Origin: Sacculina carcini
Taxonomy: Eukaryota; Arthropoda; Thecostraca; Sacculinidae
DNA length: 64,000 nucleotides
Assembly: GCA_916048095.2 (NCBI GenBank)
Contig: OU696583.1
Location: 2,703,001-2,767,000 of the forward strand
Direction: 5' to 3'
Below, in pieces: positions 6,880 through 64,000 of the stretch. The position numbers and the translations under genes are program-made. The first letter of the stretch is position 1, and each line of letters starts with the position of its first letter. The notes beneath the pieces were generated by a model, which worked only from the letters and a program-made list of their open reading frames with translations, was not told the DNA's origin and did no database searches.

Positions 6880-7310
6880 AAATTCCCTTAGTTGAGCGAC
6901 GCAAAGATAAGAGAGGGAGTTTCTATTGGTCCTCAGATTCGAGAGCTTCTTAAAAACGATGAATTTGCATCAGCTCTCCATGGGGAGGAGAAAGCTGCTT
7001 GGAAGGCATTCAAGTTAGTTACAAAGGGATTTATCGAAAGCAAAAGGGAGAGAAACTATGAGGAATTGGTGGAAAACCTCATCAAGGCTTACAAGATCAT
7101 GGGATGTAACATGTCACTCAAAATCCACTTTTTGGATTCACATTTAGAATTTTTCCAGCAAACTGTGGAGCAGTTAGTGACAAACATGGTGAAAGATTTC
7201 ATCAAGATATTTCAACCATGGAAGAGAGGTACCAGGCTAAATGGAACACAACAATGCTTGCAGACTATTGCTGGACACTGACTAGAGACGATTTTTTTAA
7301 ATTCAATCAC
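6880..7310 (+). pseudogene. Fragment of domainless multicopy invertebrate protein family, frameshifted
   Basis: Recognisable blocks are SDAKIREGVSIGPQIREL, EEKAAWKAF, GCNMSLKIHFLDSH and, after a one-base frame change near 7160, HGERFHQDIS and MLADYCWTLTRD. These are hallmarks of a large family of uncharacterised proteins that is highly multicopy in arthropods, cnidarians and other invertebrates and is probably carried by mobile elements. I know no enzymatic domain for it. Here an in-frame stop sits just before SDAKI and only the C-terminal half is present. A more complete but also broken copy lies at 56735-57690. Confidence 0.75.
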
Positions 7311-9596: not shown

Positions 9597-9935
9597 GACT
9601 CCGTGGTGTAGTGGTTAGCACACCCGCCTCACAAGCGGGAGGACCGTGGTTCGAATCCCGGCGGAGCAGAATTTCATTGGGCGAATTGTATAATCCAATA
9701 GCCCCTGTCCACCCAGCAGTAAATGATGGTACCAGATATCAGTCATGTGTTGTGTCATGCATTCTGGGGAGATGGCCCTCTCTAATACGTCTTACTTCCT
9801 TGTGGCGCCATAGCGTGGAGAGGGTCGGTTCTGCGGTGAAAGCGAGCTGCACGGGGCACACCTGTGTGTTCATAAGCTTCGGCTTCTTCCCGTGTAGCAG
9901 CTGTTACTTGAGGCTTTTAACCTTAACCTTTAAGC
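9597..9935 (+). mobile_element. tRNA-derived SINE, copy 1 (~340 bp)
   Basis: The head GACTCCGTGGTGTAGTGG...TTCGAATCCCGGCGGAGCA resembles tRNA-Val(CAC), with anticodon loop CTCACAA flanked by CCCGC/GCGGG. Perfect internal pol III boxes are visible: A box TGGTGTAGTGG (9604-9614) and B box GGTTCGAATCC (9648-9658). T-stem and acceptor mismatches show it is not a functional tRNA gene. The body (CACCCAGCAGTAAATGATGG, GTGGAGAGGGTCGGTTCTG, AAGCTTCGGCTTCTTCCCGT) and a short (TTAACC)n-like tail are shared with copies at 15879, 27291 and 56188. Confidence 0.92.
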
Positions 9936-19683: not shown

Positions 19684-22248
19684 CAGTGATTCTCAACCCT
19701 CGGCACGCGTGCCGCATGCGGCACAGTAAGGGTCTGAGTGCGGCACAGCTAGCACCAACCGATCAGTCAGTTGAAAAATATACTTCATAAAACAAGACGA
19801 TAGCATTATTAATATGGAATTGATGAAAAAACATTAAGAATATCAATACTACAAAATGGCTATAAAAACAATATAGTAAAAAATTAGAAAAATGCTGGAC
19901 TCGAACCCTCAAACTCGCAAAATGATGACAGCGACTAGCAACTGCGCTACAATCGCAGACGACAGAGTATGTTTATGCATTGTTTTATGGGGGTGCGATA
20001 ATTTTGGTAGGAAAAATATTTTAGCATGCTAGCACGATAATCTGGGTTTGCGATTCTGGCAACGTTGCAATCCACACGGCAGTTGGGCGTTAGCTGGTGT
20101 AGTAGTGGGATGTGTCTATAATTGCTCCTGCATGATTCCCTGCTGCACACACTGTTAAAGCATATTGTTCTTTTTTTGTCATTCATTGTGGGTACATATT
20201 GTGAGTACAACAGTATGTCTGGCCATACTAAGAAGAGAAAGATCGCCGAGGAGAACCGCGGATTCAAAGAGTGCTGGACCAACGAATTCTTTTTCGTGGA
20301 AGACAGAGGCAACATATTCTGCTTGATCTGCAATGAGAAGGTGTCCTGGCCCAAAAGAGACTGTATCAAGAGGCACTACGGAGCCAAGCACAGCAAGGAC
20401 TACAATGGTCTGGTGGGACCGCAGCGCGTGGATAAGGCCAAGGAGGTGATGGACCAGCTCGGCAGTCAACAGAAGCATTTCGTCAAGCCGGGCAATACCA
20501 ATGAAGCTGCCACGGAGGCCAGCTTCAAGGTGGCCGCGATCATTGCGAGGCGTATGAAGCCTTTCTCAGATGGAGAGCTTGTCAAGGAGTGCATGATGGC
20601 TGCCCTCGAAGTCATGTGCCCTGAGAAGGTCGCCGTCATCAACAAGATCAGTCTGAGCAATGACACAGTGACGAGGAGGATCGAAAGCTTGTCCAAGAAC
20701 CTGACTGAGCAGCTCCACTACTTGGCAACGAAGTTTTCTTACTTCGCTTTGGCCCTCGACGAGTCAACGGACTTGAATGACACGGCCCAGTTGGCCATCT
20801 TCGTGCGAGGCATCGACACCAACTTCAACGTGACAGAGGAGCTGCTGACTGTACGCTCCATGAAGAGCAGCACCACGGGCGAGGAAATCTTTAACGAGCT
20901 GAAGGCTGCCATGAACGACGCCAAATTCGACTTCAATCGCCTCATCGGCATTGCCACGGACGGTGCACCGTCCATGTTGGGCACGGGTCGCGGTCTCCAG
21001 GGCTATGTGATGGTGGAGTTGGACCGCCAGGGTCTGTCGCACGAGCACTTGGTGTGGTGCCACTGCATCATCCACCAGGAGGCCCTCTGTGCAAAGATTT
21101 TCAATGTCAGTTTCAAGGAAGTGATGAGTAAGGTAATCGGCCATGTCAATCACATCCGCTCCCATGCCATGAAGCACAGGCAGTTCAGGCAGTTTTTGTT
21201 GGAGTTGGATGCCCGCTACGGTGATGTCATCTACTTTTCAGGTGTGCGCTGGCTGAGCAGGGGACAAACGCTGCAGCGCTTCTGGGTCCTCAGAACCCAT
21301 CTATCCATGTTCTTCGCCATGAAGGGCATCCCGGCACCCGAGCTAGAGGACCACAAGTGGCTTTGTGACCTCGCCTTCCTCGTTGACATCACCGAGAAGC
21401 TGAACACCCTCAACGTGGCTATACAAGGCCGTAACAAGCTGGTCCACGAACTGTTTGCCCACATCAAGGCCTTCCAAACCAAGCTGCAGCTGTGGCAAGC
21501 TCAGCTGGAAAGTGGAAATCTGGCCCACTTCCCCTCCCTAAAGAGCCAGAAGGAGCATGGTGACGGCGAGTTCAGTAGCTTGCGCTACGCATCTGAGGTT
21601 TGCAAACTACAAAAGGAGTTTGACCCGAGGTTTAAAGATTTCCGCGCGAGGAACTCTGACTTTGAGCTCTTCAGTGTGCCGTTCAACGTCGACGTGTCTC
21701 AGGCACCGATTGAGCTGCAGTTGGAGTTGTGCGACCTGCAGGCCAGCATTGAGCTCAAGGGACAGTTTGTTGACAAGGAACTGGTTGACTTCTACAAGAG
21801 CCTGCCCCGAGCCACCTTTCCCAACCTGACCAAGAATGCTCAGAAGTTCATTTCTCTGTTTGGTTCCACCTATTGTGCAGAGCAGTTCTTCTCAAAGATG
21901 AAGAACACCAAGACAAACAAGAGAATTGCTCTCACGGACGCCCACTTGTTGGCTTCTCTCAAGATCGCGTCGACGCATCTGCAGCCGGACTTCAAGGCCA
22001 CCATGAATGAGCAGGAGTTTCAATCATCGCACTGGTAATCTTTGCGATGATTGTGGTGTGGTACACTGCCATGTAAAAATGTTTCTATGTGACACAAGAT
22101 AATAAAACGTTGAGAAACACTGTTTTAGACAAAAGTCTCGAGACAAAAGTTGATGACCTTTTTTTAGACAAATGTCCGGAGGGTGCGGCACACTCAGTCT
22201 AAAATGTTCCAATTTGGCACAGTGGGCCAAAAAGGTTGAGAAACACTG
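19684..22248 (+). mobile_element. Apparently complete autonomous hAT transposon, 2565 bp
   Basis: Termini CAGTGATTCTCAACC and (reverse complement of right end) CAGTGTTTCTCAACC match at 14 of 15 positions. GGTTAGAG is duplicated exactly at 19676-19683 and 22249-22256. It encloses one intact transposase gene (20215-22038), followed by an AATAAA signal near 22100. A second GTTGAGAAACACTG sits internally near 22110-22123, so the right end has a partial internal duplication. The intact gene and perfect duplication indicate a recent insertion. The terminus is that of the Charlie/SPIN group. Confidence 0.95.
20215..22038 (+). CDS. hAT transposase, Charlie/GTF2IRD2-ZBED-like, intact (607 aa from Met at 20215)
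   Basis: It catalyses cut-and-paste movement of the surrounding element. The N-terminal 75 residues form a BED-type zinc finger (CLICN...HYGAKH). The catalytic RNase H-like domain shows the first Asp in LALDESTD, the second Asp in GIATDGAPS, and a Cys/His motif WCHCIIHQEA. The C-terminal hAT dimerisation region has LFGSTYCAEQFFSKMK. No stop or frameshift interrupts it. The frame is open from 20122, but MSGHTKKRK at 20215 is the likely start because it begins with the basic segment before the BED finger. GC-rich third positions contrast with the AT-rich flanks, consistent with recent arrival. Relatives include vertebrate GTF2IRD2, which was domesticated from this group; here the intact TIRs argue for a live transposon rather than a host gene. 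Confidence 0.95.
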   Translation: MSGHTKKRKIAEENRGFKECWTNEFFFVEDRGNIFCLICNEKVSWPKRDCIKRHYGAKHSKDYNGLVGPQRVDKAKEVMDQLGSQQKHFVKPGNTNEAATEASFKVAAIIARRMKPFSDGELVKECMMAALEVMCPEKVAVINKISLSNDTVTRRIESLSKNLTEQLHYLATKFSYFALALDESTDLNDTAQLAIFVRGIDTNFNVTEELLTVRSMKSSTTGEEIFNELKAAMNDAKFDFNRLIGIATDGAPSMLGTGRGLQGYVMVELDRQGLSHEHLVWCHCIIHQEALCAKIFNVSFKEVMSKVIGHVNHIRSHAMKHRQFRQFLLELDARYGDVIYFSGVRWLSRGQTLQRFWVLRTHLSMFFAMKGIPAPELEDHKWLCDLAFLVDITEKLNTLNVAIQGRNKLVHELFAHIKAFQTKLQLWQAQLESGNLAHFPSLKSQKEHGDGEFSSLRYASEVCKLQKEFDPRFKDFRARNSDFELFSVPFNVDVSQAPIELQLELCDLQASIELKGQFVDKELVDFYKSLPRATFPNLTKNAQKFISLFGSTYCAEQFFSKMKNTKTNKRIALTDAHLLASLKIASTHLQPDFKATMNEQEFQSSHW

Positions 22249-51555: not shown

Positions 51556-52002
51556 CTACGCCCGCTGATCTACTTCGCTCAACGTGCTGCGAGTCGCTGG
51601 AGAATGAGATGGCTCTGCGACCGAGCTGCTCCGGGACGCCGGCGGTGTCTGCACAGGCAGCTGTCGCGGCATTCGACCGAGAGAATCGTCGATCAGGGAT
51701 GAGGAGATGACGCCCGTCGTTCTCCCGGGCAGATGAGTGCCGGCGGCCGGTAGATAACTTGGATACGGAGTGTGGGGCTGTGCGAGGTATCCGGGCAAGG
51801 CGTGCATCATCAGACTGGACGGCAACAGACTTCCGGCCAGCCATGGCTCTAAACTGACGGCCAGTGAAGGGAGATGTGCTATGGCAGCGGCCGACGGAGG
51901 ACCGGAAGGTCCGCCCAGCGGAAATTCGTGCTGAAGTCGCAGCTGGCTCGCCTCCATCTTCTCCTGTCGTCTCCATTTGGCACGTCGGTTCTGAAACCAT
52001 AC
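51556..52002 (-). CDS. rx: Retinal homeobox (Rx/Rax)-like gene, 3' exon: homeodomain helix 3 and C-terminal tail
   Basis: The minus strand has the acceptor TTTTGCAACAG followed by GTATGG, coding VWFQNRRAKWRRQEK, which is homeodomain residue 47 onward. RRAKWRRQEK is typical of Rx. Downstream, VSLEPWLAG, HALPGYLAQP and PYPSYLPA correspond to the LEPWL, LPGF and YPSYL motifs of Rx proteins, the eye and forebrain selector family. The frame ends at TAG (51558-51556) after SEVDQRA. The C-terminal OAR motif usual in Rax is not seen in this exon. It may be lost, or lie in a further exon reached from a weak donor such as GAA|GTAGAT. The upstream exon with helices 1-2 was not found and should lie at a higher coordinate on the minus strand. 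The intron position (46/47) is the same as in the otp-like exon. Confidence 0.85.
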   Translation of the reverse strand, partial: VWFQNRRAKWRRQEKMEASQLRLQHEFPLGGPSGPPSAAAIAHLPSLAVSLEPWLAGSLLPSSLMMHALPGYLAQPHTPYPSYLPAAGTHLPGRTTGVISSSLIDDSLGRMPRQLPVQTPPASRSSSVAEPSHSPATRSTLSEVDQRA

Positions 52003-52009
52003 CTGTTGC

Positions 52010-52357
52010 AAAACAGCATTGAAAGCCCATCAGAAACGAATGAAATCCTCCGAGCCAATAGCTATCTAGCTTGGAGACAAGAATAGAATTACATTGCCCA
52101 GAACTCTAAAAGATTTCCATTCGTCTTCTATCTGGCAGACAAAGCGCCATGTTTAGCATAGTTCTCTGTTTGTTTCCTTCAGAAATTTGCACTAGTACCA
52201 ATAGTCGACCGAGTATTGCCAGTTTAATGATACACATATATTTTTTTAATCCTTATATGGATTGCAAAAATGTACTTGCATATCTACGCATGTACGCATG
52301 CATTTGAATGTTCCGTGAGTGTGTGCGTGTTCATATGGTCTGTCTGTATGTGTTTGG

Positions 52358-53960: not shown

Positions 53961-54520
53961 CAGTGTGGTCGGCTAGTGGGAAACGGGGATGTTACGTCTA
54001 GGGTACGTTTTGTCTAGCTTCTGTCCCGGCTCATTCTATTTCTTTGTTAGGTCATATAAGGCTGGATTAGGATAGATTAGTTAGGCTGGGCTAGTTAGAA
54101 CGTGCCCTGGTTTCCGCTAAAGCAAGTACCGGTCACAAGATATCTTCCTGGTTTGATAGCCAACATGTTAACTGTTGGTCATTGGTCATACACGTATTTG
54201 CAAATGATTGAAGCGTGTACTGGAACGTCCGAAGCTTGTGAATCAGCTTAGGTAGATACCCGGCAGGACATTGAAATATTTCGTAGGTCTGCAAGTACAA
54301 GAAACAGCAATCTAACGAGAAATACAAGGTGATCTTAGCTGGTATGAGATGTAGTGAAGACAAACGCAATAACGCACAATGGGACAGATGGCTGACTTAA
54401 ATCCGAGCAAAGTGGTGGCCCAGTGGAGCGGCTTCTTGAACGCAGCCTTTCCGAATAACTCAGTGTTTAATAAGCTTCAATTATCCTGGCTCAAGAAGGT
54501 CCTTATCTTATACATCATAC

Positions 54521-54702
54521 CAGTGTCGGTGCCTATTTTTTGTGCAGAAGCTGAGGAGGGGCTAAGGAAAAAGATGCGATTGCTTGGCGAAATATGAAGA
54601 ACTACACTCGAAATGTTCATGGTCAGGATTTTGGGGGCTCAGGAGAGATTGTCACACTTTGGGAAGCTTCAGCCCCCCAGCTCCCTTTTGGCGCCGTCAC
54701 TG
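54521..54702 (+). mobile_element. MITE family 1
   Basis: CAGTGTCGGTGCC to TTTTGGCGCCGTCACTG. Interior GAACTACACTCGAAATGTTC. Confidence 0.85.
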
Positions 54703-55493
54703 TTTTATACTGTTGAAACGCCTGATGATGTTTGTCCATGAATTTCTTGCTCAATTAGCTCTACTCAATTGCAAGCTGTTTTAGGTCGCTTCATCCGTTC
54801 ATCTTGAATATCTACTGAACACATTGCTTGCATGCTTCAATTTGCACATCGCTCTTACTCCATTTATATCTTTCGGCAGACAGAAAACACAACGTAATCC
54901 GTGAGCCGCCTACATTTTCTGTGTCTTAAGCATTCGCAACAACAGGAAATCCGCGTGAATTTAAGCATTGGTAGAGCATTAAACCCGTAGAGCATTGTTT
55001 TCCAGCCTGGAGTACATCACCTCCGGGGGCGATTATTAGATAAATTACAGCTGCCGAGAATTACCTCCTGGGAGAAATTTAGCAATTTTTCGGGAGTAAT
55101 GGAGAGGTGCGAAAGAAACGAGAATTCCTCAACTAGCTCCAAATATGCAACTCCAACCATCTCACTGATACACTTGACATCTTTGATGAGTCATTAGAGA
55201 TGCAAAATATACTAACACAATACATAAAATAAATTATCACCAGTGCCTTAGTTTAGCCATACATATATCAATGCTGACAACATTTTGTTAAAGGAGGAAC
55301 ATGTTTAATATGGCATAACAAATTGGTTAACAAGCCGTTGGGAACCACTGTCCGTAGAAGCATCATTGGCTCACTCTGCACCTGACATAACGTGCCCGTG
55401 CCGGTCGATCGAATGTGAAGATGATTGACACGCTCCTTAGACGCGGCAGCCACACACATCACATCACCATTCAACAGCGACAGTCGACTAATT

Positions 55494-55556
<63 letters not shown>

Positions 55557-56187
55557 GAGCATGCGGAGCCTATAGGACTTAACCACCGGCAGTCCATCAG
55601 GAGTGGCTTTTGGAAAAGAATTAAGATGTGCCTGATAGTAAACGGTGGTGGTTGATTAAGTCGACATTCAGGACCGGAGGTAGCGAGGCAGCGGGCGATA
55701 AGTGGGCGCGATTATCAGCGTGAAATGCTGCCAGTCAGGACAGGCGACAAATTAGCCGGCGACTTATGGATTTCACCAGACATTTGGCGAAATTACAAAA
55801 TTGACAACCGGCAGTGAAGTTCCACCAAAATCTACCTCCACTTCTCGAATTTCTCGCATAAATATTGTTTTAATTTAGAGAATAAAATTAGTCATTATGG
55901 ATGCTCATAAGTAAAGACAAATTTAGTGACACGGTCATAGACACGGTCAAGTACACACACAAACACGCAGGACTACGCACGTGCTCCGGAAATGATCAAA
56001 ATATTAAACAAAATCAAGCATGTGTATTGACTGATTACACTATTTTACAACGAAATTGAAGCAAGCACAAGAATACCCGCTCTTATATCATTTAGGGGTG
56101 CTGAATTCAAATTTGAAATCCGTTTTTACTCATCGTCTCTGGTTATTTATACATGCATATTGTGCATTTAGTGAATATACGGTACAT
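54703..56187. other. Non-coding stretch with a (CA)n microsatellite
   Basis: A clean CA run lies at about 55495-55555. Otherwise no gene or repeat recognised. Confidence 0.4.
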
Positions 56188-56547
56188 AAAGGTTAAAGGT
56201 TAAGTGGCATAAGTGGCATAAGTGGCATAAAGGTAAGTGGCAGCTGCTACACGGGAAGAAGCCGAAGCTTGTGAACACACAGGCGTGCCCCGTGCAGCTC
56301 GCTGCCACCGCAGAACCGACCCTCTCCACGCTATGGCGCCGCAAGGAAGTAAGACGTATTAGAGAGGGCCGCCTCCCCAGAATGCATGATACAACTCATG
56401 ACTGATATCGGGTACCATCATTTTCTGCTGGGTGTACAGGGGCTGTGGGATTGTAGAATTCGCCCAATGAAATTCTGCTCCGCCGGGTTTCGAACCACGG
56501 ACCTCCCGCTTGTGAGGCGGGTGTACTAACAACTGCACCACGGAGTC
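56188..56547 (-). mobile_element. tRNA-derived SINE, copy 4
   Basis: On the minus strand the head GACTCCGTGGTGCAGTTGTT starts at 56547 with B box GGTTCGAAACC. The body is as in the other copies. The tail has (AAGTGGCAT)n-like and (TTAACCTTT) units (56190-56240). The A box is slightly decayed. Confidence 0.92.
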
Positions 56548-56734
56548 CACATATAGGCGTATTTGCATTTAGTGTGAATTCTAATATTATGATACTTATG
56601 GCTTATCTTTTGCTATTATGCACTCAATATAAGTGATATCATGACAATATACATATAATTATATATCATGACGGATTTTAGCAGTTTGAGGGATCGAAAC
56701 AAAGACCTTACTTACTTTTTCAACATAAGAAATA

Positions 56735-57690
56735 AGTTTTGGTACTGCACAAACATACCTGGCTTGTTCAGGTTTCTTGGTTTGCCAAATACTCCTTCAT
56801 ATTGGCGTCGCTAAGTCTTAAGGCTGTGCTTCTGCAAAACGGGAATAAACCTCCCAGCATTCCCATTGCACACTCTGTTCATCGAAAAGAGTCATATACC
56901 AATATGGAGCTTCATTTAGAAACTATTTTATTACAGCGAGTACCAATGGAGTCGGGGTCGGGACCTCAAGATCATTGGTCTACTTCTGGGTAGACAAGCG
57001 GGCTTCACAAAGTATTGCTGTATTCTCTGTCTCTGGGACAGTGGAACTGTATCCCAGCATTACAAGCAGAAGGACTGGAGAAAATTTTGTTCCTGGCGAT
57101 TACAGCGTCAAGGCAATCTTCTGGTGGACATGAATAGAGTGCTTCTTCCACCTCTTCACATCAAGCTTGGCTTAATGAAGAAAGTCGTGAAGGTGTTGGA
57201 CAAAAATGGTGCTGCCTTCCAACACTTGTCTACTGTATTTCCTGGTCTTAGTGTTTCTAAACTCAAAGAGGGCATCTTTGTCGGACCTCAGGTCCGAGAA
57301 GTGCCGAATGACACTGATTTTGAGGAGATTCTTAACTTAAAGGAACTGAGAGCATGGGAAGCATTCAAATCAATATGTAGTGGTTTATTTGGTAACACAC
57401 GTATACCAGATTACCAAGTCTGTGCTGAGAAGTTGGTAAAGTCTTACGACGATATGGGGAGCCGAATGCCAATCAAGATTCATTTTCTTCATGCCCACCT
57501 CAACTTCTTCCCACCAAACCTTCGAGCATTGAGTGATCAGCATGGATAAAGATTCCACCAGTACATTACGAAGATGGAGAGCAACTATTAAGGCAAATGG
57601 AACCCCGGCATGATAGGAGACTTCTACTGAATGCTCTTGCGTGACATCCCGGAGGCAAAATACACCAAATCGTCTAAGAAAACACACTTT
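56735..57690 (+). pseudogene. Decayed copy of the domainless multicopy invertebrate family
   Basis: Blocks in order, in shifting frames: CTNIPGLFRFLGLPNTPSYW, LKAVLLQNGNKPPSIPIAHS, GRDLKIIGLLLG, FTKYCCILCLWD, NRVLLPPLHIKLGLMKK, GIFVGPQVRE, MPIKIHFLHAHLNFF, then RFHQYITKMES and AKYTKSSKKTHF. This order matches the long uncharacterised proteins seen in hundreds of copies in many invertebrate genomes. At least three frame changes and several stops make it a pseudogene. It overlaps most of the region missing from the copy at 6880-7310. No terminal repeats were identified, so how the family moves is unclear. Confidence 0.8.
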
Positions 57691-57699
57691 TGGATGTGT

Positions 57700-58397
57700 G
57701 TGGTACTATGAATTGTGTAATTATGTCATCCAAGTATATATATTTAATCAGTATTATTTATCTATCCTGTTATATCTGTTTTAAGCTGCTGCAACTCTTT
57801 AAATGTGCACATATATTGTCTGTTTATATTAAAATGAGACTATTTAAAAGCCAGAAAACTAGAGGTGATAGAGCAAACCCACATCTAAATTTAAATTCAG
57901 CACATCCAAATTAGCAAAAAAACACCTATCCCCAATCTTGCCTCAGACCGAATTTTAACTTGTAATCCAGTGTAATTGATAGAATTCGCATTTTCGTTCG
58001 TGTTGGCTATTTTAGAATTTGTAAAAAGGCAGCTAGCTATAATTGATTCCTTCATAGTTCAACAAACAACTTCCCATTGCTTCCACTATCCATTTTTACT
58101 TCAGTATAATTCAGCAGATATAATGAGCGGTACCACATAAATAATTTCATTATCTTTCAACCACAAAAACGTTTGAAAAATTAACTTGAACAAAAATTTA
58201 TCTGTGGCTAGTGAAGGTTATTTTGTAGGACTTACACGAGTTTTAGCAAAATAAGCATTGCAATGAGAAGTGAACACATTTCTGTATGATATTCATCTGC
58301 GGTTTGAGCACGACTCAAGTACCTGCAAGTGTTCTCCGACAAGTGGAATCTGATAAACCAACATCCATCAACAATTCACCATTAAGAATCATCCAAG
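57700..58397. other. Upstream region of the 58398 ORF
   Basis: AT-rich, no repeat recognised. An in-frame TAA lies five codons before the ATG at 58398, so the ORF's start is bounded. No clear TATA box or TIR. Confidence 0.4.
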
Positions 58398-60281
58398 ATG
58401 CATACTCATCCTCCTAGTGAAGTGATGAATGAAGTGTTTGTCCAATTGCTAACATCGCTTGGACTTACGAGTGAGGCTATCAAGATCAGCAACAATCTCG
58501 ACAGTAGCAGGAAATGGGACATGTTCCTTGCTCGAGACCAAGTTATCCGTTGTGGCCCGACGTGTTACGTGCAACGTCTTAGCCAAGTCGTCCACAGGGC
58601 AGCATCCACCAAGAAGACTCGTGATGTCGTTGAGTCTTGCTGCAAGCAACTGTCTTGGCTGCAAGACCTACAAGTAAGTCTGCGAACATACAGCAGAGAG
58701 TGGATGGTGGAGTTTGTCTACAAGTACAGCGGACTCTCTGTACTACTGACCTTCATCGAGTGGTCTCTGGTAGCCTTCGAACATATAGAAGACAAAATCA
58801 GCACCACACAGCAGCGCAAGTTTACTTTTGGTGCGCGCAAGAAATGTACAAAGAGATCGGCCGATTTCAACACTCTGGCACTGGTGATTCAGCACAGCCT
58901 GATGTGTTTGAAGGCAATATCTGCTGATCAAGTGATCGGTGCATCGTTCGCTGAAGAAAAGCGAATTTTGAAACTGCTGATGAAGTGCGTGCTCATTGTG
59001 CAGCAAGAGCAGACAATCAGCCTATGTCTTGAGCTGCTCACCAGCCATCGCTTGAGCAGTAAAATCAAGAACTGCTACCTGCTTCAGCTGATCGCCATCT
59101 GCGAAATACCCAGCTGGAAGCAGGAGCAATTTACGCAGAAACTGCTGACGCGTGGTGAGAACAACTCCCCGTCGTTGCAGTGCGCTGTCGAACCGACAAC
59201 ATCAATAAAACAAAACCGGACTGTTGAGCGGCCATTGTCAATAGCCAGTGAAGCGACTGATAAAGCAGTCGGAAAATTAGAATGTGAGATACTCCAGACC
59301 GAGGAAACAACGATCATGAAATCTGGCGACATTCCAGATGAAGCTGAAACAAGTCCCGCTGATGCAATGGTGGTTGATTCCGCAGCCAGCGAGTCATTCA
59401 GTGAACGTGAGGAAGACAAGGAGAATGACTCGGCTGATGGAACAGCCAAGGAATCGACCGATGCAGAAGCTGATGACAAATCAGCCGCCCAGAAACACAG
59501 CATCACACCAAATCTGTCATCAATTTCCTGTAGCAACAGTTATGTTGTTGTAGACGGAGAAATTTCATCAGAATCAGCAGAGAGACAAGTTGAGCAGGCA
59601 GCTCCAGTGGCCGAGAGTAGTCTTTGCACTCTCTCTGGCAACGAGTGGCTGGACGATATCGTAGTCGACCAGTACCTCGCCTCGATGTCAAGCTCCCAAG
59701 TTGTCGCATTGAGCGTGCATGTGACAAGCATGCTCAGCTGCAGTTCACCGTCGACATCGGCTCTCAGGGCCGAGTTTATTCGCGGTGGAATCCAGCAATG
59801 TCCGATATGGCTGGTTCCGCATTGCGAGAACGAAATACACTGGGTGTTGTATGTCATAGTCTTGCCATGGAGACATCTCATTTATCTGAACTCCATGGGA
59901 GGCGCGCCAAACGACAGCGACGTCAATGCCGTGTTCCGGCTGGTGGAGGCAGCAGAGTCCGACCATCACGACTGCAAGCAGTGGCGGTTGATGATGCCGA
60001 CGGTGATACCCCGGCAGAATGACTCATCTTCGTGCGGCCTGTACGTGTGCTGGTTTGCCCAGCTCATTGCTCAGGGAAAACTCAAGTTCTCCGCCGGCCA
60101 AATGCGTGGCAAAGTGAAAGCCTGCCTTGAAAAAGAGAGAAGTCAGTATTCGTCATTCCTCTTCTGTCTCGAGCAAGAATCAGAGCAATCGTTTAAATCA
60201 GTGAGCTGGACAAAGACAACAGAGCACGTCGATGCCGTCGACTGCCTGCTGGCTATTCATCGGCACTTCGTCGCTCAATAG
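58398..60281 (+). CDS. Intact 627-aa ORF: formin-type GBD/FH3-like region joined to a Ulp1/SENP-like cysteine protease domain
   Basis: Residues ~38-235 resemble the Rho-GTPase-binding/FH3 region of formin-like proteins: RKWDMF, a long helix to WLQDLQVSLRTYSREWMVEF (87-106), SGLSVLLTFIEW, then DFNTLALVIQHSLMCLKAI and LCLELLTSHRL as FH3 repeats. Residues ~285-400 are acidic and Ser-rich (REEDKENDSADG), probably disordered. Residues ~413-590 resemble C48 proteases: NEWLDDIVVDQYL (415-427), IHW with His481, YLNSMGG with Asn498 where Asp is usual, and RQNDSSSCGLYVCWF with Gln540 and Cys546. The spacings (17, 48, and 6 from Gln to Cys) fit Ulp1. FH1 and FH2 actin-assembly domains are absent. Suggested activity is removal of a SUMO-like modifier or polyprotein cleavage under Rho-type control; that is inference. 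No introns, and the ATG follows an in-frame stop. It could be a host retrogene or a transposon/virus-derived gene, but no TIR, transposase or capsid gene is seen nearby. Confidence 0.75.
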   Translation: MHTHPPSEVMNEVFVQLLTSLGLTSEAIKISNNLDSSRKWDMFLARDQVIRCGPTCYVQRLSQVVHRAASTKKTRDVVESCCKQLSWLQDLQVSLRTYSREWMVEFVYKYSGLSVLLTFIEWSLVAFEHIEDKISTTQQRKFTFGARKKCTKRSADFNTLALVIQHSLMCLKAISADQVIGASFAEEKRILKLLMKCVLIVQQEQTISLCLELLTSHRLSSKIKNCYLLQLIAICEIPSWKQEQFTQKLLTRGENNSPSLQCAVEPTTSIKQNRTVERPLSIASEATDKAVGKLECEILQTEETTIMKSGDIPDEAETSPADAMVVDSAASESFSEREEDKENDSADGTAKESTDAEADDKSAAQKHSITPNLSSISCSNSYVVVDGEISSESAERQVEQAAPVAESSLCTLSGNEWLDDIVVDQYLASMSSSQVVALSVHVTSMLSCSSPSTSALRAEFIRGGIQQCPIWLVPHCENEIHWVLYVIVLPWRHLIYLNSMGGAPNDSDVNAVFRLVEAAESDHHDCKQWRLMMPTVIPRQNDSSSCGLYVCWFAQLIAQGKLKFSAGQMRGKVKACLEKERSQYSSFLFCLEQESEQSFKSVSWTKTTEHVDAVDCLLAIHRHFVAQ

Positions 60282-60535
60282 AATTACGTCCTGTGAAGAC
60301 GTGATTACGCAAAACGTGGCATACTTATTGTTTACCGTGTGTGTTTGTGTGTGTGTGTGTGTGTCTGCGGTACACAATACACGGATACAAATTACACTCA
60401 TGTGTGATATTATAATTAAGCTGCGTTATAATTTGTAATTGTGCACTGACACGTGTCACACATACTGCTCAGAGCTATTTCAGAACTGCTCAAAAAACAC
60501 CCACAACAAGCAAAACTCAAATGTACACTCTACAT

Positions 60536-60837
60536 CAGAGGTTCCCAATCGGTGGGTCGTGACTCCCTAGGGGGGCTGCGAAGCCACTTCAGGGGGTTGT
60601 GAGAGCCACCTGGAAAAAAATTATCATCCGAATTTGCAAAAAATTCAATGTTGTGAACAACTGATTCTTTTCTTTGTATTTTCGAAAAAAATCAATAACG
60701 ATGACCTTCAAGTATTGAATGTTTTAAGAATTCAGTATAAAGGTGTTTTTTAACTTCTCTTATTCGTACTGGAGGGTCATAGAGCTCTCCGGATCTGTCC
60801 TGGGGGTCGCGGAGCAAAAAAAAAATGATAACCCCTG
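60536..60837. mobile_element. hAT MITE, 302 bp
   Basis: CAGAGGTTCCCAATCGGTGG and, reversed, CAGGGGTTATCATTTTTTTT. Flanks CTCTACAT and CACTATAT match at 6 of 8. The GGGTCGTGACTCCC block near the end is typical of Charlie-type elements. Confidence 0.8.
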
Positions 60838-62190
60838 CACTATATAAAATTTTAAATAATTTTAAAATCCAAGCAGCTAATTCAACGCGCAATTTTACTG
60901 AGAAAAAATTTACTTCTCAACTTGATTTCCGGCAAAAATTTGTCCATTTTAAAGTGCAATAAACCCTATATTTTCGAAATCAGCAAGCAAAACTGCATCT
61001 ACCGCCATTTTGCACTAACTGGAGTAAAACACACTTAAAAATCGATACACCATAATGTACAGTAAGCGTTAATCTGCAAAAACATTGATAAAATCAATAC
61101 ATGAATACACGTCAGATCAAGCATAAATAGCAATACTTATAGTAATAGCAAAATAGCGTGATAGCACAATTTTTTTAATTCAATATTTACTCATACAGAT
61201 TGGAGTTCCTGTGTGAAAATAGTTGTTAAAAATATATATATACACTCACACACATATATATATATATATATACTAGCATTAAAACCCGCCCGTTGTGCGG
61301 AGCAATTCATAACATGAATAACTGCCCGCGGGACATTTTTATTTCATAAAAATGAGCCATCGCTTCGTTTGCGTTTGAAGCCCCTGATCATTGAACCAGC
61401 GAACCATGAACCAGCGCAATTATGTCACCTCATATTCAAGCATACATACACAGACAGACAGATAATTTCTTCTTTATGTATATATATAGCATTAAAACCG
61501 CATTAAAACCCGCCCGTTGTGCGGAACAATTCATAAAAACATTGCAAGTTAAAAATAAATAAGGCAAACTCATGAAGACCTTAATCAATTAAAAAGTCTA
61601 AATTTAATTATTTTTAATTTTATTTTGACAAAATATTTTCACTCAACCCGCCTCATATTTAAACCCGCCCGACGTGTGGAATAATTCAGAACTCGAACAC
61701 CATCCGTTCTGGTTCTTGAAGTCAAATCCATTAGTTTTGTATATGAATTCATTCTATACGGTGAAATTGAACGTTTTATTGCTACCCGCGGGACATTTTT
61801 ATTGCATAAAATGAGCCATCGCTTCGTTTGCGTTTGAAGCCCCTGATCATTGAACCAGCGAACCATGAACCAGCGCAATTATGTCACCTCATATTCAAGC
61901 ATACATACACAAACAGACAGATAATTTCTTCTTTATGTATATATATAGCATTAAAACCCGCCCGTTGTGCGGAGCAATTCATAACATGAAATTCATATTC
62001 AATTCGTAAAAAAATATGGAAAAATTAAATGAAATAGGGTACACTCATAAAAATATTAATCAATTGAAAATTATAAGTTTAATTATTTTTATTTCGACAA
62101 AATATTTCCCCTCAGTCCGCCTGAGTCATTTTTATACCCGCCCGTCGTGCTGAATAATTCAGAACTCGAACACGATCCGTTCTGGATCTT

Positions 62191-62823
62191 GAAGTCAAAT
62201 CCATTGGTTTTGTGTATGGATTAATTCTACAGGGTAAATTGAACGTTCTATTGTCTATAGTTGCTGCCCGCGGAGCATTTTTATTTGTAAAAAAATACCT
62301 TTTTCAAATGAACCATTTGAAAAAAATGAACTAAAAAATGGAAACACCTTTTTTAAACCCGCCCGTCGTGGGGAACAATTCATACAATAAAATTCATATT
62401 TGAAGTCAAATCCATTGGTTTTGTGTATGGATTAATTCTACAGGGAAAATTGAACGTTCTATTGTCTATAGTTGCTGCCCGCGGAACATTTTTATTTGTA
62501 AAAAAATACCTTTTTTAAATGAACCATTTGAAAAAAATGAACTAAAAAATGGAAACACATTTTTTAAACCCGCCCGTCGTGGGGAGCAATTCATACAATA
62601 AAATTCATATTTGAAGTCAAATCCATTGGTTTTGTGTATGGATTAATTCTACAGGGAAAATTGAACGTTCTATTGTCTATAGTTGCTGCCCGCGGAACAT
62701 TTTTATTTTTTAAAAAATTACCTTTTTTTAAATGAACCATTTGAAAAAATGATCTAAAAACACTTTTTAAACCCACCCGTCGTGCGGAACAATTCATACA
62801 ATAAAATTCATATCAAATCCATA
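62191..62823. repeat. Three tandem 211-bp units
   Basis: GAAGTCAAATCCATTGGTTT recurs at 62191, 62402 and 62613, exactly 211 bp apart, with near-identical units containing GAACGTTCTATTGTCTATAG and one GC-rich core each. Confidence 0.92.
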
Positions 62824-63311
62824 AAATATAATGAATACAAATTGAAAAGCAAAAAATGTAACCTATAAATATCTTAACCAATAGAAAAGTCTAAATGTGA
62901 ATATTTTTGTTCTTATTTTGACAAATATTATCCCTCAACCCGCCTGATATATAAATCTGCCCGTCGTGTGGTATAATTCAGAACACAAACACGAAACAAA
63001 CAATGAAAGATGATGAAATCTTTTCATCAGAATGTTTCCAAACTATGTTTATTACTTAACATCATTCCCCAATATCATTTGCTTAAGTACTATTTCACTT
63101 TTACCGCTATAATATTTATTGTTAAAATTTATATATTTTCCGCTATCATTAAAACCCAATATAACCTGAGTCAAACCTACCCAACCCAACCCAACCATTC
63201 AATCTTGACCGCTCTCAGCCTAGTCTGAGGTGATTTAACTTATTAGTTTGTGATCACAAAATATACTGATGCGATCATAATTTGTAATCAGAAGACTGAG
63301 ATTATCTACCC

Positions 63312-63370
63312 CAGGGGTCCCAAACACGCGGCCCACAAATACTTTTCTCTCAACCCGCCAATATAGTATC
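63312..63370 (+). mobile_element. hAT left-terminal fragment
   Basis: CAGGGGTCCCAAACACGCGG followed by CCC resembles the CAGGGGT(C/T)CCAAAC...GGCCC start common in Charlie-type elements. The right end was not found before the window edge. Confidence 0.45.
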
Positions 63371-64000
63371 GGGACCAAACTGAAAGGTAGCTAAATTCAC
63401 ATTTGTTGCATAATGCGATATAATTATACACCATTATCATATTATCTCATAATTCCCGGTTAATGCTTCCACTAATGCATCATATTCATACAGTTGTTAT
63501 TTTTTGGATTACACCGATATTACAGCCCTTGATATTACAGCCGATATTATATTATGCAATCTATATTCAGCTACGTATTATTCCTAATACATATATCATC
63601 AGATCGCAAAATATATTTAAAGGTTCACATCATTCTCCAAAATCATTTGCTTAAGAGCTATTCTAATTTTATCGCTAGAATATTTACTGCTAGCAAAATA
63701 TCATATACCTCGCTATCATTTAAACCCACTCTTTATAGATACATTTAATTCGCCCGTCGTGCGGAACAGTTCATAAAATATAATTAATATTCAATTCATA
63801 AAAAAATTAGTGCAAATTGAAAAAGAAAAACAAACCCACAGGAAAGTTATAGCTAATATAAAAGTCTAAAAGTGAAATTTATGTTTCAATTTAGAAAACA
63901 TGTTTTTCCACAACACTATCAAAACAATGCAACCTTCTGTCATCTCTATAATTCCAGGTTAATGCTTCCGCTAAAACAGCATAAGTTGGCATTACATGAT

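Follow-up and report, generated by a model that had tools for sequence, protein, structure and literature searches.

The GTPase-binding domains (GBDs) of formins act as autoinhibition switches of actin nucleators, and in the Cdc42–Par6–aPKC module PKC iota/zeta is linked to a Rho-family GTPase. The Pfam model Drf_GBD spans the G region and part of the DID (PMC5047451); in FMNL2, residues K73, E111, D219 and H222 contact Cdc42, and armadillo repeats 4–5 are also used (PMC4432619). GBD/FH3 modules outside formins are already known (PMC555941, PMC5047451). Among the C48 peptidases, SENP1 relies on the triad H533–D550–C603 and on a Gly-Gly tunnel with W534 as its floor and W465 as its lid (PMC5030089), and Rac1 is described in a review as SUMOylated by PIAS3 and deSUMOylated by SENP1 (PMC7140047). 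The protease pS273R has been assigned to the same Pfam family, PF02902 (PMC10318531), and its residues His168, Asn187 and Cys232 are described as responsible for activity (PMC9866604). Finally, Ulp1 is present in Ginger1 and Mutator transposons (PMC2836005) and in Cryptons (PMC3212892).

The gene analyzed here lies in a 64-kb stretch of Sacculina carcini DNA (referred to as the window) and joins a formin-type GBD to a SENP-like protease. We found no formin–Ulp1 fusion in the literature surveyed at the level of titles and abstract openings; protease and Ulp go unmentioned in PMC555941, PMC5628938 and PMC2386819, as does protease in PMC5047451.

Anatomy of the reading frame

The open reading frame (ORF) extends from an ATG at 58398 to a TAG ending at 60281, with an in-frame TAA 12 bases 5' of the ATG (Table 1). 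Its 631 stop-free codons are far beyond chance expectation: the longest stop-free frame in 100 simulated 64-kb windows had 261 codons, or 393 with the composition of the ORF, and the five alternative frames of 58398–60281 contain 14 to 34 stops. In every part of the ORF, codon usage outscored each of 500 nucleotide shuffles; in the N-terminal part and the linker the true frame was not clearly favored, reverse frames scoring higher. The linker showed a strong three-base periodicity (7.9 at 59298), the start of the ORF a weak one.

The original prediction, made from the nucleotide sequence, was of an uninterrupted 627-codon frame with a bounded start, in which a formin GBD/FH3-like region and a Ulp1-like protease are separated by a disordered acidic linker within a single intact intronless ORF. 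Most of this description stands: the ATG, the TAG and the upstream TAA delimit the frame, the profile search returned both Drf_GBD and Peptidase_C48 above their curated cut-offs, and the 150 residues of the linker (251–400) comprise 33 D/E against 13 K/R, with 35 S/T and 2 aromatic residues. The FH3 part does not, Drf_FH3 being absent from the results of the same search, and the mobile-element alternative offered with it fares poorly (see below), whereas the GBD/Ulp1 fusion, the residue numbering and the Asp-to-Asn change in the catalytic triad were all recovered.

Table 1. Coordinates of the GBD–protease gene and of sister genes (window positions, unless a locus number precedes them)
Feature	Position	Strand	Basis or remark
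Whole ORF, GBD – acidic linker – C48 protease	58398..60281	+	627 aa + stop; 631-codon stop-to-stop frame
Diaphanous-type GTPase-binding domain, FMNL-like, residues 5–215	58410..59042	+	Pfam Drf_GBD; FMNL matches
Acidic Ser/Thr-rich linker, residues 251–400	59148..59597	+	Composition; dN/dS 0.87
Ulp1/SENP (C48) catalytic domain, residues 406–561	59613..60080	+	Pfam C48; SENP1 alignment
W417-L-D-D420 = SENP1 W465, D468	59646..59657	+	W417, D420 invariant in 11/11 copies
His481-Trp482 = SENP1 H533-W534	59838..59843	+	11/11 copies
Asn498 at SENP1 Asp550 position	59889..59891	+	Asp in 8/11 copies
Gln540 to Cys546 = SENP1 Q597 to C603	60015..60035	+	Q540, C546 in 11/11 copies
Unit common to the window gene and seven close copies	57969..60433 (L001 1072-3536)	+	~430 bases 5' of ATG to ~150 3' of stop
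First AATAAA 3' of stop	60958..60963	+	677 bases away, outside shared unit; weak candidate
GBD + one to three kinase domains, intron-free frames	L013 2994-9740, L019 2049-6995, L016 1889-4408, L032-L041
GBD, proline-rich stretch, FH2 in one 867-codon frame	L024 4889-7489 (C25:6.167 Mb)

Other searches with the protein returned nothing: Pfam had no match on the linker stretch 59148–59579, nor on the 627-residue protein for FH2 or DAD (E up to 1), and the NCBIfam and PHROGs profiles gave none for the ORF protein. AlphaFold models made without an alignment were of low confidence (mean pLDDT 45.0 and 50.8) and had no Foldseek match at E ≤ 0.001. Within the window, the sole further tblastn match had an E of 8.4. 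Outside its own genome, no homologue was found in protein databases (candidates scored: the 8000 best-sharing for the whole protein, 1229 for residues 1–250 and 652 for residues 400–600), viral contigs or prokaryote genomes, collections that are poor in animals; this absence carries little weight, because not even a SENP or a formin was recovered from the protein databases.

The GTPase-binding domain

Drf_GBD (PF06371) matches residues 5–215 with 31.9 bits (E 1.2e-7; cut-off 30.1), and with 35.3 bits when this part is scanned alone. The nearest solved structures are those of FMNL2 (4yc7_B, residues 8–135, E 2e-8; 34 of 124 residues identical) and FMNL1 (4ydh_A, residues 7–176, E 2e-6). A compositional effect is excluded both for this match and for that of the protease, because shuffled sequences score far lower: the GBD reaches 36.6 bits against a best of 15.0 in 20,000 shuffles, and the protease 38.6 bits against 11.5. 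Drf_FH3 (PF06367) gave no match on the separate parts at a max_evalue of 10, a search in which the program's filters discard most weak matches, and residues 141–251 matched no formin in the PDB. A likeness of residues 185–241 to SYK kinase (E 0.17–2.1) was taken as chance; when residues 1–250 were compared with the PDB at E up to 10, the remaining 19 matches were all to SYK kinase (E 0.66–0.75).

Three FMNL2 residues, W61, R115 and W121, are retained as W40, R96 and W102 in the window protein, and K73 is represented by R51. The FMNL-type Cdc42 contacts are altered, since the positions of E111, D219 and H222 are occupied by Q92, L162 and Q165; armadillo repeats 4–5, those that FMNL2 uses, were not detected in the window protein. 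The GBD probably has a Rho-family partner, Cdc42 not being assured as such.

The C48 protease domain

Peptidase_C48 (PF02902) matches residues 465–561 with 51.4 bits (E 1.6e-13; cut-off 20.7), and with 53.9 bits for the part alone. The nearest solved structure to residues 406–561 is SENP1 (E 7e-9; 41 of 155 residues identical, or 26%), followed by SENP2, SENP5 and Ulp1. In the alignments, the predicted catalytic residues His481, Asn498, Gln540 and Cys546 fall opposite H533, D550, Q597 and C603 of SENP1, so that the predicted catalytic numbering is correct; the Q597/C603 register is that of the longer SENP1 chain, u28998, the 6nnq chain being one residue short.

Among 13 positions compared across the 11 intact copies of the gene (see next section), 11 are invariant, including W417, D420, H481, W482, Q540 and C546 in the protease and W40, R51, R96 and W102 in the GBD. 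The two exceptions are position 165, which is variable, and position 498, which has Asn in the window copy, L002 and L003 and, in the other eight, the triad Asp of Peptidase C48. Asn498 is a derived change in three of 11 copies of an otherwise canonical family, and no hallmark of that family.

The three Asn copies invite the reading that the fusion is real and selected but that the C48 domain of these copies, or of all of them, binds SUMO without cutting it, the protein being a Rho–SUMO adaptor. We regard this as unlikely: all 11 copies have the Cys, the His, the Gln and both tunnel Trp, eight of the 11 have the full Cys-His-Asp triad, and for pS273R, a PF02902 member (PMC10318531), an Asn is described among the residues responsible for activity (PMC9866604).

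Copies of the gene and their selection

Rather than standing alone, the fusion recurs at many loci: at least 11 intact full-length GBD–protease copies, each with both domains, lie on five contigs of the own genome (a 264-Mb assembly of 43 contigs, in which the window is C18:2703001–2767000), the window gene included, and these copy numbers are lower bounds, 70 of 273 candidates having been scored. The original prediction named the lack of any homologue with both domains as grounds for rejecting it; these copies are such homologues. Eight copies, including the window gene (L001), are 89–100% identical and three are near 60%. The seven close copies of the window gene (89–93% identity; five on contig C18, one on C22 and one on C9) share its 631-codon stop-to-stop frame, which is thus found in eight of eight close copies on three contigs. 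The distant copies, L009, L010 and L011, have frames of 693, 711 and 759 codons; the domains were assigned by Pfam for L009 and, for L010, L011 and L002–L008, by reference to those of the window gene. The family also decays: several matches on C18, C16 and C3 contain stops, and L031 is divided into two frames.

The comparison of dN/dS among copies, suggested with the original prediction, revealed purifying selection on the GBD and the protease and weak selection on the linker. With the NG86 method, the 28 pairs of the eight close copies gave 0.24 for residues 1–250, 0.37 for residues 401–600 and 0.87 for the linker, with a whole-frame mean of 0.43 (dN 0.034, dS 0.079). The whole-frame value was about 0.4 against L009–L011 (L001 versus L009: dN 0.274, dS 0.678). 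That selection is purifying at the N-terminal and C-terminal ends alike implies that the sensor and the enzyme are both used; what the one binds and the other cleaves is inferred.

These data bear on the idea that the copies are amplified retrocopies without function, or stem from an artefact of assembly. The coding frame is indeed intron-free, whereas several formins of the same genome appear to be split into exons (FH2 and GBD pieces at 4.55–4.60 Mb of C9 and 5.66–5.69 Mb of C21), and some copies are broken. Nevertheless, the copy comparison largely refutes this idea, which we consider highly improbable: dN/dS is well below 1 in both domains of the close copies and about 0.4 against the distant ones, and the frame is conserved in all eight close copies across the three contigs. 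No poly-A tract with a flanking duplication was recognized 3' of the stop.

Relation to mobile elements

The original prediction also offered that the gene might be cargo or an accessory of an undescribed mobile element. The copies would then be carried by an element with a Ulp1 gene, in the manner of Ginger1, Mutator or Crypton transposons, in which Ulp1 is known (PMC2836005, PMC3212892). The many scattered copies with a common unit and the repeat-rich surroundings are compatible with such an element, as are two weak pairs of repeats that bracket the ORF: 22-nt arms at 58303 and 60473, 73% complementary, and 19-nt direct repeats at 57903 and 60625, 89% alike (among the 20 listed of 24 direct-repeat families). 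The bracketing repeats are, however, of chance size, and Pfam detected no transposase, integrase or recombinase either in the ORF or in any of the 39 other frames of at least 60 codons that overlap 54500–64000. The stretches shared between copies end differently from pair to pair, reaching up to 3.8 kb for L006 versus L007; of the seven close copies, L005 shares the common unit from about 305 bases before the ATG and L002 in separate pieces. Unequal ends of this kind suit segmental duplication better than a mobile element whose ends are fixed. In addition, the closest relatives of the protease are cellular SENPs, and sister GBD genes occur in clusters, on C4, C11, C15 and C25. Carriage by a mobile element is therefore quite improbable, although less so than an amplification of dead retrocopies. 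Altogether, the artefact, retrocopy and mobile-element explanations lose ground because intact copies, selection and unequal segment ends are observed.

A larger family of GBD–effector genes

A much larger GBD–effector family is present, of which the window gene represents one branch. Drf_GBD was found at 142 places in the own genome (147 candidates, all scored) and in none of 14 control genomes. Stop-free frames of at least 300 codons contain 127 of these 142 matches and, three frames having two GBDs, number 124, with a median length of 803 codons. Besides the window's, 29 GBD frames out of the 142 matches were scanned with Pfam: 19 contain one to three kinase domains each (L012, L013, L016–L019, L025, L026, L030 and L032–L041), one a C48 domain (L009), one an FH2 domain (L024) and eight nothing further over the cut-off (L014, which is partial, L020–L023, L027, with two GBDs, L028 and L029). 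Note that L014 and L012 are clipped at the locus edge, that L015 lies outside the Pfam scan and that the GBDs of L024 and of several kinase frames score just below the curated cut-off (26.7–28.8 bits).

The kinase of L016, the one compared with solved structures, is nearest to PKC iota (506 bits, E 1e-150), followed by PKC beta (326 bits, E 6e-96). Ten single-kinase frames all have the lysine motif, and the catalytic loop reads HRDLK or YRDLK in nine of them, L036 having HRDLN. Their dN/dS is 0.30 for the GBD, 0.46 for the kinase and 0.68 for the linker (45 pairs from 10 of the 19 kinase frames).

In a tree of 31 own-genome GBDs and two FMNL fragments, which excludes L032–L041 and comes with a long-branch warning, three clades stand out: the 11 protease GBDs (99/99), those of kinase frames with L027, L014 and L015 (13 rows; 100/99), and four GBD-only sequences (100/98). 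From these separate clades, each effector was probably acquired a single time, with multiplication afterwards. L024 has a single frame that comprises GBD, FH2 and a proline-rich stretch; that a retrocopied formin lies at the root of the GBD family is a reasonable guess. Although several formins look split into exons (see above), nearly full-length single-frame FH2 matches, with no listed GBD nearby, also exist at 9.39 Mb of C9, 7.18 Mb of C16 and 6.62 Mb of C26 (the last with stops).

A big expansion, clusters, fast linkers and intact copies together with broken ones are the usual look of immune or reproductive receptor families. The GBDs might accordingly monitor what state Rho GTPases are in and trigger a kinase or a protease, either as guards against microbial tampering or in gamete or cell competition. 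Selection on the GBD is purifying, not diversifying, which speaks against such receptors, and we hold this reading, in both variants, to be about as doubtful as that of an adaptor.

Other features of the window

The window resembles animal DNA: besides the homeobox, hAT-like and tRNA-like sequences described below, it holds reverse-transcriptase frames and long CA/GT tracts. Two homeobox half-exons lie on the minus strand, one at 727–1164, which encodes homeodomain positions 1–46, and one at 51556–52029: VWFQNRRAKWRRQEK. They probably belong to different, perhaps tandem, genes, since they follow each other in reverse order along the minus strand. An intact 610-codon frame related to hAT transposons is found at 20206–22035 (+), with a Dimer_Tnp_hAT score of 20.9 bits, just below the cut-off of 21.4. 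Relics of one repeat protein occur at 6892–7281 (+) and 56920–57549 (+), with 39% identity over 95 residues and no Pfam match over the cut-off.

Just outside the unit shared by the copies, a stretch of about 300 bp (60536–60837) starts with CAGAGGTTCCCAA, ends with AACCCCTG and has flanking 8-mers identical at six of eight positions; we take it to resemble a non-autonomous hAT-type insertion, and it includes the ten-A run at 60816–60825. Further on, 61255–63800 is a repeat island with the core CCCGCCCGTYGTGCGGAACAATTCATAA, consisting in part of a 211-bp tandem array (62189–62813). Finally, four tRNA-Val(CAC)-like sequences, at 9597, 15879 and 27292 (+) and at 56475 (−), are probably the heads of one SINE family.

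Discussion

In our best reading of its sequence, the window gene encodes a new Rho-linked deSUMOylase-like protein, with activities that are putative. More generally, we give a probability of roughly 0.6 to the ORF being a working member of an expanded receptor–effector family in which the formin GBD steers enzymes to Rho-family GTPases. Such a family would stem from an intron-free gene with an FMNL-like region, comprising the G subdomain and the first armadillo repeats, that increased in copy number within the genome and acquired different effectors. In the protease branch, a SENP1/2-type Ulp1 domain would be held on a flexible, fast-changing acidic linker; the GBD would most likely bind an active Rho-family GTPase and so recruit the protein, whose C48 domain would deconjugate SUMO, or a modifier related to it, from that GTPase or adjacent proteins. 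The sister branches would follow the same scheme with a PKC-iota-type kinase. In this scheme, we infer GTPase binding, the identity of the GTPase, protease activity, the modifier and expression.

At a wider scale, and with somewhat less than even confidence, the genes may represent a modular superfamily built on one formin-derived module that senses active Rho-family GTPases and occurs in at least 120 intron-free frames of one animal genome. This sensor would be paired with a SUMO-protease or with between one and three PKC-type kinase domains and, in one instance, retained alongside FH2, so that Rho signaling would be wired to deSUMOylation and polarity-kinase activity without the usual adaptors. 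The formin GBD would here be a reusable sensor whose enzymes are exchanged and, if the proteins work, would provide a direct link from Rho signaling to different enzymes. The combination of expansion, a sensor and an enzyme under purifying selection, and fast linkers raises the question of what pressure favors more than 100 Rho-sensing genes in a single animal. Should the GBD bind GTPases, the kinase branch would be a natural shortcut of the Cdc42–Par6–aPKC module, and the protease branch would offer a direct test of Rho-to-SUMO coupling, Rac1 being a known SENP1 substrate (PMC7140047).

The comparison with known systems delineates what is particular to this gene. FMNL1 and FMNL2, the closest solved relatives of residues 7–176, likewise have an N-terminal GBD, but the window protein shows no match to FH3, FH2 or DAD, ends in a protease, is encoded without a coding intron and differs at several Cdc42-contact residues. 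With SENP1, SENP2 and Ulp1 it shares the catalytic His, Gln and Cys, both tunnel Trp and the W-L-x-D motif, whereas its N-terminus is a formin GBD and Asn replaces the triad Asp in three of 11 copies. Dictyostelium RasGEF-L/V and the ecdysozoan Multiple Wing Hairs (MWH) also carry the formin N-terminal module without FH2; in the former, however, it is joined to a RasGEF, and Drosophila MWH has a DID and a DD with no predicted G domain, no protease or kinase being mentioned for either in the excerpts of PMC5047451 and PMC555941. Ginger1, Mutator and Crypton elements share the PF02902 domain (PMC2836005, PMC3212892), but theirs accompanies a transposase or recombinase, and none was found around the window gene. 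The kinase-bearing frames among the scanned sister genes, finally, parallel the Cdc42–Par6–aPKC module. Both couple, or would couple, a Rho-family GTPase to a kinase, which is PKC iota/zeta in the module and PKC-iota-like in L016, the one compared, except that the sister genes hold the GBD and the kinase in one frame, without Par6.
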